Translations under genes and position numbers: made by a program | NCBI GenBank assembly: GCA_910575585.1 | Contig: CAJTGF010000058.1 | Span: 1-34,678 of the forward strand | Direction of reading: 5' to 3' | Length of the DNA: 34,678 nucleotides | Origin: Clostridiaceae bacterium | Lineage (GTDB): Bacteria > Bacillota > Clostridia > Lachnospirales > Lachnospiraceae | Notes under the pieces: generated by a model | What the model saw: only the letters and a program-made list of their open reading frames with translations | What the model was told of the DNA's origin: nothing | Database searches by the model: none | Shown here: positions 1 through 34,678 of the stretch, piece after piece | Numbering within the stretch: position 1 is the stretch's first letter | Layout: the number at the start of each line of letters is the position of its first letter

Positions 1-107
1 AAAGGGTTTATCCCAGGTGTCTCAGATCATCTATAAATCTATAGAAAGAATAAGTGCATAACCATCATTTCTACTGGCTATACACTTATTATACGAGGGA
101 GAAGGAT

Positions 108-16017: not shown

Positions 16018-17835
16018 ATAACTTCTCGGAATCTCAATGAATGAGATACCAACTGAAAATTGACAACTGAATATCGTGCAAGAAAAGAAATTTGAGAAAA
16101 ATGGACATAAACATTGGACATAGCGGGTACTATGCCTTGAAAAATCTTATGGAATCGCTTAAGATATCATTATTAGGCGGTGAATCCTAATAATGATTCT
16201 TGAAATGCCTCAGCAGAGGGCATTTCCCAGGCATCAAGATGCTGTAACATCATGATGCCGTAGAGGCGGCAGTACCACATCTTAGTCGAGCGGTGCCTGC
16301 CGTCTTCTAATTTATAGTCCTCTTTCTCCCGCTTGTTGGAGCGCTCCACAGAAGTTCTTCTATCATATTCCTTTTCCCATGCTTTAGAGTCCCTTGGCGG
16401 TATGTTAAATAACCTTGGATTGTCATCGGTAAAGATGTGTACGGTTCTTCCATATTTTGCCGGTGAACAGGGGTGTTCACAGAAGCAGCCACGTTTCCGG
16501 TTTGATTTCGGGCACCGGTATTTTGCCCGGTGTTTGGCAGCTTCATATCCATCTTTATGCATACGTAAGCCCAACTTACAGACAGGGACCCCATCGTCAT
16601 CGATTGTGAAATCGTCCTTATAGGTAAAATGCCCGGTATGTCCGGGATTGAGGTCGATAAACGGTGTGATATCTTCCCGTCTGCAGTAATCATAAACAGC
16701 GTAAGCGTCGTGTGCAGAATCCAGAAGGAGCTTTTCAATCCGGAAAGCCGGAAGATACGCTTTCATGGTGAAAAAGGAATGCAGGAAGGAAAGCATGTCA
16801 TGCCGGGAGGCCCGCTCTAAAAGCGGAAACACAGGGAGGTCGCTGAAGGAATCGGAAGCCACATACATGTAGAGGTGGTAACCGAAGAAATAGGATTCCC
16901 TGTGAGAGTCCCATCCCCAGTTACAGTCGGGCTGGGAATAATGGCGTTTACAGTTACAGGAAGAACAGCCTTTCTCCTTACAATGGCAGATGCGCTTTTT
17001 GCGTTGCTGTGCGGCAGTACGGACAGGGGTGCCGTCACCGGCAAGAGCCAGGTGCCGGGGATTAACCAACCCCCTGTGGATGGACTGGTCCAGGAACTGC
17101 TGTTGGTAAAGCCGGAAAATGAGGAAAAAGGGATTCTCAGGCTTTAACTGCCAGCGTTCCAGCAGGGGAAGAAGTTTTGAAGCAGTGATGGAAGAATCGC
17201 AGGGAGTCTTATCCCCTTTCTTCTTTCCCTTGGGAGTTTTCTTCATTTTAGGGAACCGGTCTTTCGGGGAAAGGTTGTTGGAGTCATCCTGCCAGATGCG
17301 GGAAAAGAAATCATAAAAAGTACCGACACCAGGGGTATCGCTGAAAGAGAAACCGCTGAGGATGGCATAAAGGGGAGTTTCCTTAAGCATGCGGCACCAG
17401 ACAGTGATGGAAGTAACTTTCAGTTTCAAGGCAAGCAGATAGGAGCGCAGCATGCAGGAAGGGAGCCGTGGTTCCGGGCCAAAAACAGAGTAACATTCCT
17501 GCATGACAGAATCCGTCTTGGAAAGATCAAGAAACCAGAACTGCACGATATAATCCCAGGTGCTTTTGGGAAGCGCAAAGGGATCCGGGTAAAATTTAAG
17601 GAACTGGGATACGAAAGAATCCTGAAAGGCGGCATGACCGCCAGGGTTACAAGGTAACATCAAAAATCGCCTCCAATCAAAAAATGTACTTTTTGATCAA
17701 GGGCGCGAAGCGCCGCATTTTTTGACTGGTTTGTCAAGTGTTTTTGAGAAAAAAGTGGGTGAAAAAGTGGGTGATTTTTGAAAAATAGGTTCTGAAAGCC
17801 CCATGAAATAAGGGCTGAAGATTCCGAGAAGTTAT
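16018..17835 (-). mobile_element. Insertion sequence with DDE transposase
   Basis: An 1818-bp element with 17-bp perfect terminal inverted repeats (ATAACTTCTCGGAATCT at 16018-16034, its complement at 17819-17835) and a 4-bp target duplication GTCA (16014-16017 and 17836-17839). It carries one transposase gene on the minus strand. Intact ends and duplication indicate a recent insertion. Length, 4-bp duplication and protein suggest an IS1182/IS4-like family, which I cannot settle by eye. Confidence 0.9.
16173..17660 (-). CDS. DDE transposase of the insertion sequence
   Basis: A 495-residue transposase. Candidate catalytic residues are Asp in LALAGDGTPVR, Asp in EKLLLDSAHDAYAVYDYC and Glu in RRTSVERSNKREKEDY. 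A Cys/His-rich insert (CHCKEKGCSSCNCKRH) between the first two may bind zinc. The N-terminus has a helical DNA-binding region (LPSCMLRSYLLALKLKVTSI). The ATG at 17660 follows GGAGG by 9 bases. The frame is full length and undamaged, so the element may still move. Confidence 0.88.
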   Translation of the reverse strand: MLPCNPGGHAAFQDSFVSQFLKFYPDPFALPKSTWDYIVQFWFLDLSKTDSVMQECYSVFGPEPRLPSCMLRSYLLALKLKVTSITVWCRMLKETPLYAILSGFSFSDTPGVGTFYDFFSRIWQDDSNNLSPKDRFPKMKKTPKGKKKGDKTPCDSSITASKLLPLLERWQLKPENPFFLIFRLYQQQFLDQSIHRGLVNPRHLALAGDGTPVRTAAQQRKKRICHCKEKGCSSCNCKRHYSQPDCNWGWDSHRESYFFGYHLYMYVASDSFSDLPVFPLLERASRHDMLSFLHSFFTMKAYLPAFRIEKLLLDSAHDAYAVYDYCRREDITPFIDLNPGHTGHFTYKDDFTIDDDGVPVCKLGLRMHKDGYEAAKHRAKYRCPKSNRKRGCFCEHPCSPAKYGRTVHIFTDDNPRLFNIPPRDSKAWEKEYDRRTSVERSNKREKEDYKLEDGRHRSTKMWYCRLYGIMMLQHLDAWEMPSAEAFQESLLGFTA

Positions 17836-18245: not shown

Positions 18246-18959
18246 GACCCTTAAGAACGATATCTTGCGCAAAATGGCAAAATAATGGAATTGCTGTATT
18301 GTTGAGTGAGCAAAGGGGCCGATTTAGTCGTGAAGCCAGTCAGAGAAGGAGAGATGTCCCGTCCGGGTTCAGATATGCCAAACATTCCGATGAGCCCAAA
18401 ACGGAAATCAGTCGGGTATCATCCCTCCTGCTTTCCTGGTCTCATCTCCATGGCATATATTCACCCTGCCGGAACATCTCTCCTTCTCTGACTGGCAAAA
18501 CCAGAATTCGCTGGCTAAGGTTTGCTCACTTAAGGTGGTTTCGGTAGGGGACGCTGCTTCAACTTTGCAGCAAAAAATAGCTTCTTTTTAGGGCTTCAAG
18601 TATATTGTTGAGTAAGGTTAAGGCGATGTTGCTGTGAACCTGAAAGGATCTGCAGACAAAGCAGTTATCTTTTCACTACAGAGTCGAAACGGCGTTCCCT
18701 ATCGAAACCACCTTAAGCGAGCAAATCCCGGCCAGCGAATTCTGCTTTTGCCCGGGAGGGAAGGGAGGCTGTGTGCCGGGCGGGTGAATACATGCCATGG
18801 AGATGAGACCAGGAAAGCAGGAGGGATGATACCCGACTGATTTCCGCTTTGGGCTCATCGGAATGTCTGGCATATCTGAACCCGAACGGCACACAGCCTC
18901 CCTTCCCTCCCGGGCTCCGCCACAATCCCCGCCCATTGCTCACTCAACAATACAGCAAC
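18246..18959. mobile_element. Composite fold-back element, copy 2
   Basis: The left end is identical to copy 1 (GACCCTTAAGAACGATATC, preceded by TA). Two hairpin units follow, about 18298-18530 and 18717-18951, each resembling the single hairpin of copy 1, with a separate inverted-repeat element at 18530-18716 between them. Similarity to copy 1 stops after CAATACAGCAA at 18959, so the outer right inverted repeat is missing. No protein is encoded. It lies 36 bases after the broken nuclease gene. Confidence 0.75.
18530..18716. repeat. Nested inverted-repeat element, 187 bp
   Basis: Bounded by TTAAGGTGGTTTCGGTAGGG and its near-complement (CCCTATCGAAACCACCTTAA); about 23 of 25 terminal bases match after complementing. 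It separates the two hairpins of the composite fold-back element and encodes nothing recognisable, so a second MITE-like family is the simplest reading. Confidence 0.6.
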
Positions 18960-22064: not shown

Positions 22065-22955
22065 CTAAAACTCTTCTATGATGCTATTGAGCGTTTCCTC
22101 GGTCTCGGAAGACAGGGCATCTCCAAGTTCAGCGCCTGTTACATAGTCGTCAGCGCCGTGAAAGTCTTTCCGGCCGCATCCACAGCCGCCGTTGTCGGTA
22201 CCGCTGCGCATGGACATATTCCATCCGTCAGAAAAACCGGCATTGTAGCCTCTGCGGTAGCCAGCCCGGAAATCCCGCCTTCTGGTCTCCGCGCTGCAGC
22301 CGTTTTGGCAGCTGCACGGGCAGTTGCAGTTGTTATCGCAGTCATTTTCGCACTTATCTTCGCAGCAGCCGCAGCTTCCCGTATTGCCGCCGCCAACGCC
22401 GCAATTATTGCTGTTATTACAGCAGCTGCAGTTGCAGTGACAGTGGCAACCGGGCCGGCAGCAGTTACAGCAGCAATTATTGTTGGTATTGCCGCCGCCT
22501 ACACCGTTGTTATTGCCGTTGCAGCAGCAGTTGCAGTGGCAGCCGGGCCGGCAGCAGCAGTTATTGTTGGTGCTGCCGCCGCCAACGCCGTTGTTATTGC
22601 CGTTACTGCAGCAGTTGCAATGGCAGTGACAGTGGCAGCCGGGCCGGCAGCAGCAGTTATTGTTGGTGCTGCCGCCGCCGACGCCGTTGTTATTGCCGTT
22701 ATTGCAGCAGTTGCAGTGGCAATGGCAGCCGGGCCGGCAGCAGCAGTTATTATTGGAGTTTCCGCCGCCAACGCCGTTGTTATTGCCGTTATTGCAGCAG
22801 TTGCAGTGACAGTGGCATCCAGGGCGGCAGCAGTTATTGTTGGTATTGCCGCCGCCAACGCCGTTATTGTTGCAGCAGTCGCAGTCACAGGTATTTCCAC
22901 AGCAGCAGTTTTTTCTGCAAAGGCAAAGATTACATCCACATAAATTACACAACAT
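22065..22955 (-). CDS. Cysteine-rich tandem-repeat protein, probable spore-surface protein
   Basis: 296 residues with about 68 cysteines by hand count (roughly 23%). Residues 1-30 are Cys-rich. Residues 28-194 contain six GVGGG motifs spaced 28-35 residues apart, alternating with five RPGCHC blocks of the form CCCRPGCHCHCNCC followed by Asn-rich linkers (NNGNNN). Residues 195-220 are again Cys-rich. The tail is cysteine-poor and charged (RRDFRAGYRRGYNAGFSDGW) with an acidic end. No signal peptide is seen. AAGGAG lies 7 bases before the ATG, and a sigma-K-like promoter precedes it. The family is unknown to me. Cys-rich exosporium proteins such as CdeC/CdeM of Clostridioides are functional analogies, not shown homologues. 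Confidence 0.82.
   Translation of the reverse strand: MLCNLCGCNLCLCRKNCCCGNTCDCDCCNNNGVGGGNTNNNCCRPGCHCHCNCCNNGNNNGVGGGNSNNNCCCRPGCHCHCNCCNNGNNNGVGGGSTNNNCCCRPGCHCHCHCNCCSNGNNNGVGGGSTNNNCCCRPGCHCNCCCNGNNNGVGGGNTNNNCCCNCCRPGCHCHCNCSCCNNSNNCGVGGGNTGSCGCCEDKCENDCDNNCNCPCSCQNGCSAETRRRDFRAGYRRGYNAGFSDGWNMSMRSGTDNGGCGCGRKDFHGADDYVTGAELGDALSSETEETLNSIIEEF
22374..22874 (-). repeat. Coding tandem repeats of about 84-105 bp
   Basis: Imperfect direct repeats encode the GVGGG/RPGCHC units. Each contains GCCGGGCCGGCAGCAGCAGT or a close variant on the plus strand. Unequal exchange could change the repeat number. Confidence 0.75.
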
Positions 22956-24436: not shown

Positions 24437-24667
24437 ATGGCTTGCTCTTATTGTAACCAGACTGCCGGCTCTCAGAATATGCAGTCCGGCGCCTATGCCT
24501 TTTCCTGCACCAACACCGGCGCGGGAGGTATGGAGCAGTATCCCGTGGGTATGGGTTATGTGCCATGGCAGCAGTGGCAGCAGACGTATTCTCTGGAACA
24601 GGGGTTTAAGCGGGGAACTATCTTCCCGGATCTGGATCTTACTTTTAATATGGGGAGGTGCCGCTGA
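24437..24667 (+). CDS. cotJA: Spore coat-associated protein CotJA
   Basis: 76 residues. The C-terminal two thirds, EQYPVGMGYVPWQQWQQTYS then LEQGFKRGTIFPDLDLTF, is the CotJA signature. The N-terminus (ACSYCNQTAGSQ) is longer than in Bacillus and contains cysteines. CotJA is made in the mother cell and deposited in the inner coat. AAGGAG precedes the ATG, and its stop overlaps the cotJB start as TGATG. Confidence 0.92.
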   Translation: MACSYCNQTAGSQNMQSGAYAFSCTNTGAGGMEQYPVGMGYVPWQQWQQTYSLEQGFKRGTIFPDLDLTFNMGRCR

Positions 24668-24969
24668 TGCCGGTTTATGATCAAAACCAGCTTTTGTCCA
24701 TGATCGATCAGGCCAGCTTTGCCATGGATGACGTGCTTTTGTATCTGGATACCCATCCCTGCGACAGGGCGGCGCTGAACTATTATCAGTACGCAGCGAA
24801 AATGCGTCAGAACGCTATGGACACGTATTCGGCCAATTATGGCCCGCTGACCGTAGATCAGGTCCGCTCCGATCAGTACTGGACCTGGGTTCAGGGCAGA
24901 TGGCCCTGGGAAGGGAAAGGAGGGGCAAGCGTATGTGGAACTATGAAAAACGGCTGCAGTACCCGGTAA
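24667..24969 (+). CDS. cotJB: Spore coat protein CotJB
   Basis: 100 residues: LLSMIDQASFAMDDVLLYLD, THPCDRAALNYYQYA, YGPLTVDQVRSDQYWTW and RWPWEGKGG are CotJB hallmarks. The ATG at 24667 is 9 bases after GGGGAGG and is coupled to cotJA. An in-frame GTG at 24658 sits inside the ribosome site and is less likely. The tail after WPWEGKGG overlaps the cotJC start by 37 bases. Confidence 0.92.
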   Translation: MPVYDQNQLLSMIDQASFAMDDVLLYLDTHPCDRAALNYYQYAAKMRQNAMDTYSANYGPLTVDQVRSDQYWTWVQGRWPWEGKGGASVCGTMKNGCSTR

Positions 24970-25046
24970 ATATCAGCCAGCCTAATCCAAAGATGGCCCA
25001 GTTTATTATGAGTCAGTACGGCGGACCGGATTGTAAAAACAGATAA
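24933..25046 (+). pseudogene. cotJC: CotJC (manganese catalase), 5' fragment cut by an element
   Basis: ATG at 24933 after AAAGGAGGGG. It reads WNYEKRLQYPVNISQPNPKM then AQFIMSQYGGPD, the CotJC N-terminus, and then leaves the family at CKNR-stop. Intact CotJC proteins are about 190 residues, continue GGPDGEL..., and carry a di-manganese catalase site. The break is where the recombinase-bearing element begins. The rest of the gene should lie beyond the far end of that element, outside this window. Confidence 0.88.
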
Positions 25047-25053
25047 TAAATCT

Positions 25054-26508
25054 TTAGACATAATAATGGAATTCCATCCGGTTTTCACCACGATAGTAAA
25101 TGATCTTTTTTACAATACTGCGGAGAGCCACGCCTTTTATCTCATATGTAATATCCGGATTAGAAATAAGATTGTAAGCGGAGCGGATACTCTCCATAAT
25201 CTCCGCTTTCTGCAGAGCCGGGGACGCATCAGACTCCTGGGATATCAGGTTTTGGAATTCTTGGTTTAAGCTTTCCCGCTCTGCCCTAAGCCGTTCTTTG
25301 TTTGCTTGGTATTCCAGAAGGGAATCAATACCGTTCTCGTAAGCGTCACGGATCCGGCGTTCTTTCATGTCAAGGCGGGATAGGGCGGCGTCAATGGCAG
25401 CTTGCTCTTCGGATCGTATTTTATTTGCGGGACGGATATATTCAAATTCTACATCTCCCGTATCCAGAACCCGCTGCAGAGATTTCAGAACCGCAGTTTC
25501 CGCCTTATGTACGGCGATGCTGCAGGAACCAGTATGGTAACCTTTGGCATATTTCCAACATTGGAAAAAATCGGGACGCTTCTTTGGATCGTTGGATCTA
25601 TTTACCGACAGACTGGCACCACAGGTTCCGCATACCAGGATTCCGGAAAGCCAGTGCTGGCAGGAGGATATCTCCCGCCTTTTTATTGGCCGAAATTCCT
25701 GTGTCAGGCGGGTCAGATTTCCCTGGAAAAGGTCCGTGACACTCGGCCGGATCTCATGAGTTCCCTTAAACTGGATGCCGTTCCATTCCACGATCCCCAT
25801 ATAGAAGTGGTTTCGCAGGATCCGGTCGATGGTCCGGCGCTCAAAAGGATTGCCCCGTTTTGTGCGATATCCCCGTCGGTTACATTCTCTGGCAACAGCA
25901 GTCAGATCATGGCCTTCATGATAATAGCGGAAGATAAATTCCACCATGGAGTATTCCCGTTCGTCGATAACATAAGGATTTCCACCGCCAACCGCTTTAT
26001 AACCCAGGCACGGGGAAAGCTGGTAGCCATTGCGAAGGGCTTTTTCGGACATGCCTCTTAGGACTTCTCCCGATAAGTTGATGGAGTAATATTCATCAAA
26101 CCATTCAATAATGGTTTCAATGAGCCGTCCAAACATGCCTTCAGCAACCGGTTCTGATACGCTCTTGATCTCCACATTGCACTTTTTTCTCAGGATCCCT
26201 TTATAAAAGATGCTTTCTTCCTGATTTCGGGCAAACCGGGAAAATTTCCACAGATACAGCCGTTTGAATGGGGAAGGGGATTGGGATTTGGCTACGGCGA
26301 TCATTCGCTGAAATTCAGGTCGATTTTCCGCTTTACGGCCGGAGATCCCTTTTTTCTCCATAAATATAAAGTCTTCTGGAATGATAAATCCCTCCTGCCT
26401 GGCAGTATCCCGGATAACACGGATCTGCGCGTCCGGCGAGAGTTCTGTCTGGTCATCGGTACTGACCCGCACATAGGCGGCGCCAATCTCTAAAGTATCA
26501 GCTTTCAT
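25054..26508 (-). CDS. Large serine recombinase (integrase/excisionase, SpoIVCA-like)
   Basis: 484 residues. The resolvase-type catalytic domain has the nucleophile in YVRVSTDDQ (Ser16) and the arginine motif LYLWKFSRFARN. The recombinase domain follows (RGMSEKALRNGYQLSPCLGY, then RTIDRILRNHFYMGIVEWNG). Next are a zinc ribbon with CGTCGASLSVN and a later Cys pair, and a coiled coil (LDMKERRIRDAYENGIDSLL). Its stop codon is only about 20 bases from the cotJC break. GGGAG lies 8 or 9 bases before the ATG. It should integrate and, with or without a helper, excise the element. Confidence 0.92.
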   Translation of the reverse strand: MKADTLEIGAAYVRVSTDDQTELSPDAQIRVIRDTARQEGFIIPEDFIFMEKKGISGRKAENRPEFQRMIAVAKSQSPSPFKRLYLWKFSRFARNQEESIFYKGILRKKCNVEIKSVSEPVAEGMFGRLIETIIEWFDEYYSINLSGEVLRGMSEKALRNGYQLSPCLGYKAVGGGNPYVIDEREYSMVEFIFRYYHEGHDLTAVARECNRRGYRTKRGNPFERRTIDRILRNHFYMGIVEWNGIQFKGTHEIRPSVTDLFQGNLTRLTQEFRPIKRREISSCQHWLSGILVCGTCGASLSVNRSNDPKKRPDFFQCWKYAKGYHTGSCSIAVHKAETAVLKSLQRVLDTGDVEFEYIRPANKIRSEEQAAIDAALSRLDMKERRIRDAYENGIDSLLEYQANKERLRAERESLNQEFQNLISQESDASPALQKAEIMESIRSAYNLISNPDITYEIKGVALRSIVKKIIYYRGENRMEFHYYV

Positions 26509-27977: not shown

Positions 27978-28736
27978 TCAATTCTCCTCCGCTTTCCCCA
28001 GCACCTTCCCCAACACGATAATCCTATCATCATCAGCCGTAAGCCCAGGATAATCAGGGTTTAAAGAAGTAAGCCCATTTTCCCCAGTCTTTTTGATGTA
28101 GATGTTATTGCCTTTTTGGAAGATGCCTATGTCTCCAACATTTAAGTGTTCGGTTTTCTGAACATAGACGATATCCCCGTCGGAATATTCAGGTTCCATG
28201 GAAGCGCCATTCACACCGATAACGTAGTCGGCATTTTTGTTTATCTCATTTTCCGGATAGGCTCTGACCCCGGCAGCTATGTCGGAAAACTCCACACTGG
28301 TTCCTGCGGCAGCTATCTTGCCATAGTAGGCGAAAAAGTGAGGAGGGATGGAGCGTATGGATAACCGCTGTTGGAGGTGTTCTATGGTATCGGTGGATTC
28401 TTTGGCCTGGGTGGTGCGTTCGAGTTCCCAGTCAAGCACGGAGTCAACATGGGATTGGCCTAAGGGGTCAAGGGAGCGGTATTTTTCTATGTGCTCAAAT
28501 TCGGATGCTTTGAGTTCATACGAATAAAGGATTTCTTTGTCTTCCTGTAGGCCTAAAAGAAAATCAGTGGAAACATTAAATTTCTTGGAAAATCTTATCA
28601 AAAACTCAGAGTCAGGTTCTCTGGCTCCTGTTTCATAATTATTGTATGTTGTATATTTAATACCTATATACTCTGCAAATTCTTTTTTGTTCATTCCAGT
28701 TCGTTCACGCACTTCTCTTAGCTTATCCTTTATCAT
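27978..28736 (-). CDS. CI-type phage repressor (XRE HTH plus S24 peptidase)
   Basis: 252 residues. Residues 1-60 are an XRE helix-turn-helix (EFAEYIGIKYTTYNNYETGA). Residues about 140-250 are a LexA/CI self-cleaving domain with an Ala-Gly pair near 144, Ser179 in NGASMEPEYSDGD and the catalytic lysine in NIYIKKTGENG. RecA-stimulated self-cleavage would induce the element. GGAGG lies 6 bases before the ATG, and the leftward promoter TTGACA-17-TAACAT lies above. Confidence 0.9.
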   Translation of the reverse strand: MIKDKLREVRERTGMNKKEFAEYIGIKYTTYNNYETGAREPDSEFLIRFSKKFNVSTDFLLGLQEDKEILYSYELKASEFEHIEKYRSLDPLGQSHVDSVLDWELERTTQAKESTDTIEHLQQRLSIRSIPPHFFAYYGKIAAAGTSVEFSDIAAGVRAYPENEINKNADYVIGVNGASMEPEYSDGDIVYVQKTEHLNVGDIGIFQKGNNIYIKKTGENGLTSLNPDYPGLTADDDRIIVLGKVLGKAEEN

Positions 28737-28901: not shown

Positions 28902-29108
28902 TTGAAATATCCTAACATAGAAGCTGAAAGAGCCAGAATTGGTATGTCAAAGGATGATTTTGCAAAAAGATTAGGGATTGCGACAAAGACATATTACAAC
29001 TGGCTAAATGGAGTGAATCCGATACCTAGCGATAGGCTAATTGAAATGTCATCTTTATGTGATTCAAAAATAGATTATTTGCTAGGGTTAAGTGAGAAAC
29101 GGAGATAA
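28902..29108 (+). CDS. Cro-like XRE regulator
   Basis: 68 residues, a single helix-turn-helix: YPNIEAERARIGMSKDDFAK, RLGIATKTYYNWLNGV, IDYLLGLSEKRR. The start is TTG after GGAGGTGAT. It is first in the rightward early operon behind the consensus promoter and divergent from the CI gene, so it probably represses lysogenic transcription. Confidence 0.85.
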   Translation: MKYPNIEAERARIGMSKDDFAKRLGIATKTYYNWLNGVNPIPSDRLIEMSSLCDSKIDYLLGLSEKRR

Positions 29109-33393: not shown

Positions 33394-33575
33394 CTCTTGC
33401 TATCGGTTTTTCCGAGAGTGTGGAAGACTGTATCGAAAAAGCGTGTGCAGGTGGAATAGTAAAGAACGTGATACATAGTGAAATTTTTCTGCATGCATAC
33501 AGAAATAAATATTGAAAAACAAGTAGTACAAGTAGCACTGCATAAAATGCATCAAAACAAAGTGAAGGGTAAGGA

Positions 33576-33740
33576 ATGGCACAGACTAAAAATACAGTAG
33601 AAATAGTGAATAAAATAGAGATTAATGGGAGGCCAGAAGTGTTATTTGATTCCATTCCTGATGCAGAAAAGAAGAGAATAGTGCTGATCATGAATGAAAG
33701 GATTATGAAGCCTATAGGGTATCAGAGGAAGACCAGTTAA
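33576..33740 (+). CDS. Small phage protein, unknown function
   Basis: 54 residues: AQTKNTVEIVNKIEINGRPE, VLFDSIPDAEKKRIVLIMNE, RIMKPIGYQRKTS. The ATG follows GAAGGGTAAGG. Similar small proteins occur in phages of related bacteria (from memory), with unknown role. Confidence 0.62.
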   Translation: MAQTKNTVEIVNKIEINGRPEVLFDSIPDAEKKRIVLIMNERIMKPIGYQRKTS

Positions 33741-34661: not shown

Positions 34662-34678
34662 GGGAGGTGATGGCTGTG
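34662..34678 (+). other. Ribosome site and start of a gene cut by the window end
   Basis: GGGAGGTGATGGCTGTG: GGAGG is followed by ATG at 34670 and, at better spacing, GTG at 34676, the last codon in the window. Confidence 0.4.

Follow-up and report, generated by a model that had tools for sequence, protein, structure and literature searches.

The spore-coat gene cotJC of a Clostridiaceae bacterium (GCA_910575585.1) is split by a prophage that carries a large serine recombinase (LSR). Judged from the sequence, this insertion is real, as is the exact restoration of the gene that excision would bring, and the element is very probably a developmental switch of the skin type. Excision during sporulation is what we infer from a candidate recombination directionality factor (RDF) and its promoter, from the selection acting on the exons and from the recurrence of the arrangement. 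According to the mechanism proposed here, a temperate phage would have integrated at codon 33 of cotJC by means of its own LSR. During vegetative growth the LSR would be present alone, with no excision. During sporulation a small RDF, probably the product of 33576-33740, would be made from a mother-cell promoter of the sigma-E/K type, and would switch the LSR over to excision between attL and attR. CotJC, the manganese catalase of the spore coat, would be restored in a cell that is due to die in any case, the mother cell, and the spore chromosome would retain the element. Integrations of this kind appear to have arisen at three points of cotJC by way of several LSR lineages, and a number of copies seem to have been reduced to little beyond the recombinase and the candidate RDF. 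Taken as a whole, this mechanism, which comprises the phage split of cotJC, an RDF-timed excision in the mother cell and a recurrent origin, is considered likely.

The window, that is, the whole stretch of DNA analysed (34,678 nucleotides), is contig C58 of a 6.1-Mb genome in 253 contigs, and the contig ends at position 34678. Its forward strand holds cotJA (24437-24667; PF11007, E 2.7e-17) and cotJB (24667-24969), an open frame named from its position and its overlap with cotJC; both had been described as intact in the sequence-only reading, and both are open. The 5' piece of cotJC comes next (24933-25046, forward strand). Its frame from 24933 reads MWNYEKRLQYPVNISQPNPKMAQFIMSQYGGPD, 33 native codons extending to 25031, followed by CKNR and a stop codon that derive from phage DNA. 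Against PF05067 (Mn_catalase) the piece matches profile positions 1-33 only, at an E of 2.4e-5 that lies slightly under the curated cut-off, and it scores 54.8 bits against a cotJC profile made in this analysis. These results agree with the earlier description of a cotJC that keeps to its family as far as codon 33 and stops thereafter; the stop codon of the recombinase, placed there about 20 bases further on, is found 23 bases past codon 33. Close upstream of the oxidoreductase-cotJ cluster, a repetitive ORF of 296 aa, rich in Cys and Asn (22065-22955, reverse strand; GVGGG..NNNCCCRPGCHC units seen by eye), perhaps encodes a coat protein. Elsewhere in the window there is a transposase-like ORF (16173-17663, reverse strand; by eye), near which ORFs on opposite strands at 18299-18943 encode largely the same peptide (by eye), indicating an inverted DNA repeat.

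The LSR (25054-26508, reverse strand; 484 aa) is encoded at the end of the element and contains the domains that define its class, namely Resolvase (3.1e-20), Recombinase (7.3e-13) and a zinc ribbon (Zn_ribbon_recom, 1.2e-9). It matches a PHROG integrase at 7.6e-86, and Ser16 of its RVS motif is invariant among 14 aligned relatives. Also inside attL are a LexA-like phage repressor with HTH_3 and Peptidase_S24 domains (27978-28736, reverse strand) and a small HTH regulator (28902-29108, forward strand; phrog_8, 1.2e-10), and an endolysin-type repeat protein (phrog_7854, 1.2e-25) is encoded just inside attR. The LSR, repressor, regulator and endolysin identify the element as a prophage; read from both of its ends, it holds the integrase, repressor and lysis genes of a temperate phage. 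Among the 302 records of the phage collection that match the LSR, none reaches 60% identity (the best is 35%), and when free attP was sought in IMG/VR as a degenerate pattern to be matched exactly, there were 0 matches. In one contig of IMG/VR (L041), flanks read by eye show an attP-like palindrome next to a related LSR and no cotJC flank, which suggests the excised form of a phage.

The missing part of cotJC had been predicted for the far end of the element, at attR, and is present on contig C104 of the same genome, where it reads GEMGAAMRYL... and matches PF05067 over profile positions 25-197; between them, the two pieces match 1-33 and 25-197. On C104, phage DNA is followed by CAGTACGGCGGACCGGA and this in turn by the codons of GEMGAAMRYLSQRY. 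This 17-bp CAGTACGGCGGACCGGA is the core of attL in the window (25014-25030, forward strand), and its second copy lies at attR on C104. A short core common to both ends had been correctly anticipated, but its position had been given as 25025-25035, which is slightly off. The phage arm of attL (25031-25052, forward strand) is an inverted repeat of the phage arm of attR, with 18 identical bases, and such inverted arms at both ends are what would be expected of an attP site. When the two ends are joined at the core, CotJC reads in frame for 199 codons over the matched part, with no stop. Since the crossover falls within the conserved codons SQYGGPDGE, exact excision would restore the reading frame, which supports the early reading of an element that splits cotJC and whose excision could rebuild it. 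The element is not contiguous in this assembly, its middle lying on further contigs and the window contig stopping at 34678, and its two ends might in principle come from different elements or from an assembly error. This is hardly credible, given the 17-bp core, the matching inverted attP arms and the occurrence of both halves on one contig in other genomes. Such is the case of G009 and G023 (6.9 and 40 kb apart), of the single-contig genomes G259, G291, G350 and G365, and of the closed record of Hungatella hathewayi DSM 13479 (87 kb apart).

PF05067 has three matches in the source genome, on C73 (profile 1-211), in the window (1-33) and on C104 (25-197). The one on C73 is a second, uninterrupted cotJC paralogue, so rebuilding the split copy may matter little. 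Both this paralogue and the truncated state of the window gene, taken by itself, would fit a cotJC that is dead in the source genome, with the insertion as a permanent loss. That reading is regarded as very improbable, because the 3' half on C104 is open and conserved, and because the strong purifying selection on the split exons of relatives is not that of a dead gene. Selection was estimated in eight hand-chosen minimal-element loci of relatives. Their full-length downstream exons show either no amino-acid change or a dN/dS of about 0.02 where dS is measurable (0.07 to >2, some values saturated), and two partial exons of 33 codons show up to 0.07. The LSRs of minimal elements have dN/dS values of 0.05-0.14, and the small ORF taken as candidate RDF is under weaker constraint (0.08-1.3). 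The cargo gene common to the minimal elements suggests vertical descent.

Split copies of cotJC are widespread, according to break tallies made by hand from the match tables for genus, family and class. Complementary pieces occur in 16 of the 26 genomes of the genus, with breaks near profile position 33 in eight (the source genome included), near 65 in five, near 150 in one, and at both 65 and 150 in two. Profile position 150 corresponds to codon 134, and the recurrent break points are codons 33, 65 and 134. In the family set (396 genomes with completeness of at least 90%), PF05067 is matched in 250, and complementary pieces were found in at least 88 of the 396 (56 of 60 and 29 of 50 examined, plus G000, G017 and G023); this is a lower bound, as 137 of the 250 matched genomes, with one or two matches and a best E of at most about 4e-40, lie outside the split-copy check. 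The remaining four of the 60 have a frameshift (G053) or pieces that do not adjoin (G164, G187 and G333). At class level, 238 of 392 genomes have a match, and among the 45 chosen from them for their weak best match, 32 contain complementary pieces, across 16 families besides this one; six others suggest a frameshift or the end of a contig, and seven are ambiguous. The class count includes G446, G709 and G789, in which the halves are 156 kb to 1.1 Mb apart. For G709 and G789 the distances are 675 kb in one case and 1.1 Mb, with the halves on opposite strands, in the other, and these could be rearranged or abandoned copies or, alternatively, very long excisions.

More than one element can be found in the same gene, as three cotJC pieces lie on a single contig in G362, G195, G234, G405, G524 and G735, and four pieces are spread over three contigs in G541. 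Three pieces each are also present in L. celerecrescens 152B and Clostridium sp. MCC353, and the halves are only 3 kb apart in H. hathewayi WAL-18680 and 2.8 kb apart in Lacrimispora xylanisolvens ASCUSBR21. L. xylanisolvens DSM 3808 (record of L103) likewise has a small codon-33 element, and L. celerecrescens 152B (record of L086) contains two elements. Among loci collected by similarity to the LSR (best 80 of 526 retained), 67 of 79 named loci contain a cotJC piece, and 7 of 14 loci from IMG/VR do. Joining the exon pairs gave an in-frame product for 57 of 74, the other 17 having no core; the procedure demanded frame, so that little weight attaches to the lack of stops, and a core of only 5-9 bp may be a chance match. 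The strong pairs are only the 22 joined in frame at a core of at least 10 bp (21 distinct, L049 and L095 being one locus). Tandem arrangements were also observed: L101 (10473-13353) has two copies of the cotJC 5' piece and three identical ones of the candidate RDF, forming a tandem element array, and in G074 (C68, 14708-18625) the 3' piece (profile 60-198) is present twice in tandem, with one 5' piece elsewhere.

The recombinases were tallied for those exon ends that have an LSR within 700 bases, duplicate records included. All 71 codon-33 ends have an LSR nearest to the window lineage (66) or to a distant relative of it (5), and all nine codon-134 ends have LSRs of one lineage. The 29 codon-65 ends are mixed, with 14 matching two codon-65 queries strongly and 15 weakly (35-61 bits), the latter probably representing further lineages. 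Orientation varies among species; G003 and G017, for example, carry their LSR on the 3' side. The codon-65 point falls in the stretch TDIGTEELAH and the codon-134 point in AEQKARTTYDN, which we take to be sites of metal ligands in CotJC. A group II intron or a transposon was also considered as the cause of the breaks and is not favoured, since LSRs are found at them.

The elements differ widely in content. Those at codon 65 in the genus measure 4-8 kb and have varied cargo (AbiEii by domain match, the rest by eye), and minimal elements at codon 33 (2.5-3 kb) comprise the LSR together with one or two further genes and an ORF of about 50 aa that is divergent as a rule. In the smallest elements overall (1.6-3 kb) the LSR is retained, as is the small ORF in most cases, and no phage genes were seen among their ORFs. 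Twelve of the 79 named LSR relatives have no cotJC piece within the stretch fetched. In several of these (L139, L147, L153, L155 and L156) and in L213, LSR relatives split a gene with a SpoIID-like front, which scores under the Pfam cut-off, and a peptidoglycan-binding end (L153, L155 and L156 assigned by eye; L213 fetched separately from the 79). In L149 and L150 the split gene is of the Amidase_3 type, CwlD-like but under the cut-off of the CwlD model (L150 by eye).

The candidate RDF of the window (33576-33740, forward strand; 54 aa) belongs to the family of ORFs of about 50 aa. Profile iteration gave 75 matches at 1e-4, some of them duplicates, including the window ORF and ORFs of IMG/VR contigs. 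From position, size and co-occurrence we infer that this family represents the RDF, which in the window would probably be the 33576-33740 protein. In L158 the small ORF runs in the same direction as the LSR, unlike the usual divergent arrangement, and in the minimal elements L159 and L180 no ORF of about 50 aa was found. For six family members, neither Pfam nor PHROGs yielded a convincing relative. A profile search of the PDB with the family alignment gave a best E of 0.0075, to an adenylate kinase, taken as a chance match. A structure model (pLDDT 85, pTM 0.54) gave three matches in a fold search, the best with an E of 6.6, and no solved fold.

Upstream of the candidate RDF, the window contains the promoter-like box GTACAA-N9-CATA (33526-33549, forward strand), which deviates from the stricter form of the box. 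CATA lies at -48 to -18 in 57 of 62 distinct copies of the small ORF versus 157 of 853 control ORFs from the same loci, and TACAA-N8-11-CATA precedes 30 of 62 versus 1 of 853 (Fisher p 8e-38), p-values that overstate independence because the copies are related. A weighted sigma-E-like score of at least 10 is reached by 47% of the copies, compared with 6.7% among 861 controls and 6.1% among shuffled sequences. In 4.2 Mb of strand sequence there are 38 occurrences of the strict box. Of these, 32 are ahead of the small ORF of codon-33 elements, and four of the other six are in codon-65 elements, ahead of a different small ORF family. In ten whole genomes it has 14 matches, spread over seven, and the reversed control has none; in the window's own genome the strict form has 0 matches. 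Some matches stand before other small ORFs, and one, in L212, belongs to an element whose LSR adjoins an ORF that looks FeoA-like by eye. The box therefore extends beyond elements in sporulation genes and may be a phage signal rather than a sporulation signal. Upstream of host cotJA genes, CATANNNT is found at -75 to -12 in 29 of 47, a raw count over a range wider than -48 to -18. Read against the sigma-E and sigma-K consensus that we assume, the small-ORF upstream region resembles sigma-E/K promoters; CATACA(A/T)T, which precedes the candidate RDF, has a sigma-E-like appearance, and CATANNNTA, which precedes cotJA, a sigma-K-like one. Should both assignments be correct, the RDF would be switched on before cotJC. 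As a separate observation, an ORF with a Spo0A_C domain (L214, 8314-8826; 5e-28) has a second LSR and a copy of the box in its neighbourhood, and the 1.6-kb codon-65 element L174 holds an ORF that resembles it (by eye).

The finding of the box at other sites bears on a rival explanation, by which these would be ordinary prophages that use cotJC merely as a convenient conserved target and are excised on phage induction rather than in sporulation, with the loss of CotJC tolerated thanks to the paralogue. The uninterrupted copy in the source genome, the repressor and endolysin genes and the palindrome of L041 are likewise consistent with it. However, ordinary prophages would not readily account for elements of 1.6-3 kb that lack visible phage genes and retain the LSR and usually the small ORF, nor for exon dN/dS values of about 0.02, for a promoter-like box upstream of the small ORF, or for LSR relatives that split SpoIID-like, peptidoglycan-binding or CwlD-like domain genes. 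This explanation is considered unlikely, and the developmental switch is preferred.

Among the closest known systems is skin in sigK of B. subtilis and C. difficile, where a prophage-like element with an LSR also splits a mother-cell gene that excision rebuilds. Its target is a sigma factor, in contrast to the coat enzyme gene and the three integration points described here. According to PMC5025042, the RDF of C. difficile skin depends on sigma-E and SpoIIID and sets the timing of excision. That RDF, CD1234, has 72 aa, whereas the cotJC candidates form an unrelated-looking family of about 50 aa known from sequence. SP-beta, which interrupts the spore-envelope gene spsM of B. subtilis, likewise seems to be a complete phage, and its excision takes place during sporulation (PMC4191935); it differs in target and phage, and the cotJC element has minimal relatives at the same point. 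Other intervening elements in sporulation genes are yin in yabG, vfbin in spoVFB and gin in gerE, each known for one gene and few strains, and the portions available of the two sources (PMC10747680 and PMC5595907) do not name cotJC as a target. In C. difficile R20291, the prophage phi027 lies beside a cotJC-like gene situated downstream of attR (PMC11222575, PMC12122855); it adjoins the gene and, in the accessible text, no rebuilding is proposed. Searches of the open-licence PMC full text, a body outside which subscription papers, preprints and supplements fall, turned up no account of cotJC being split and rebuilt by such an element. The cotJC elements are thus read as new in target, multiplicity and breadth, and as being of the same kind as skin and SP-beta.

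Sporulation-linked rebuilding is known for a handful of genes, sigK, spsM, spoVFB, gerE and yabG (PMC10747680, PMC5595907). For the Clostridia, we lean towards the view that cotJC is a gene in pieces, from which up to three elements would be excised in each sporulation. Their LSR lineages would largely track the integration point, unrelated small RDFs behind one shared mother-cell promoter would time their excision, and some elements would have been domesticated to nearly bare recombinase cassettes. Split cotJC genes would represent many natural replicates of the passage from phage to developmental switch, and their loci offer a set of candidate LSR-RDF pairs. In annotated genomes, CotJC will often seem truncated or absent.
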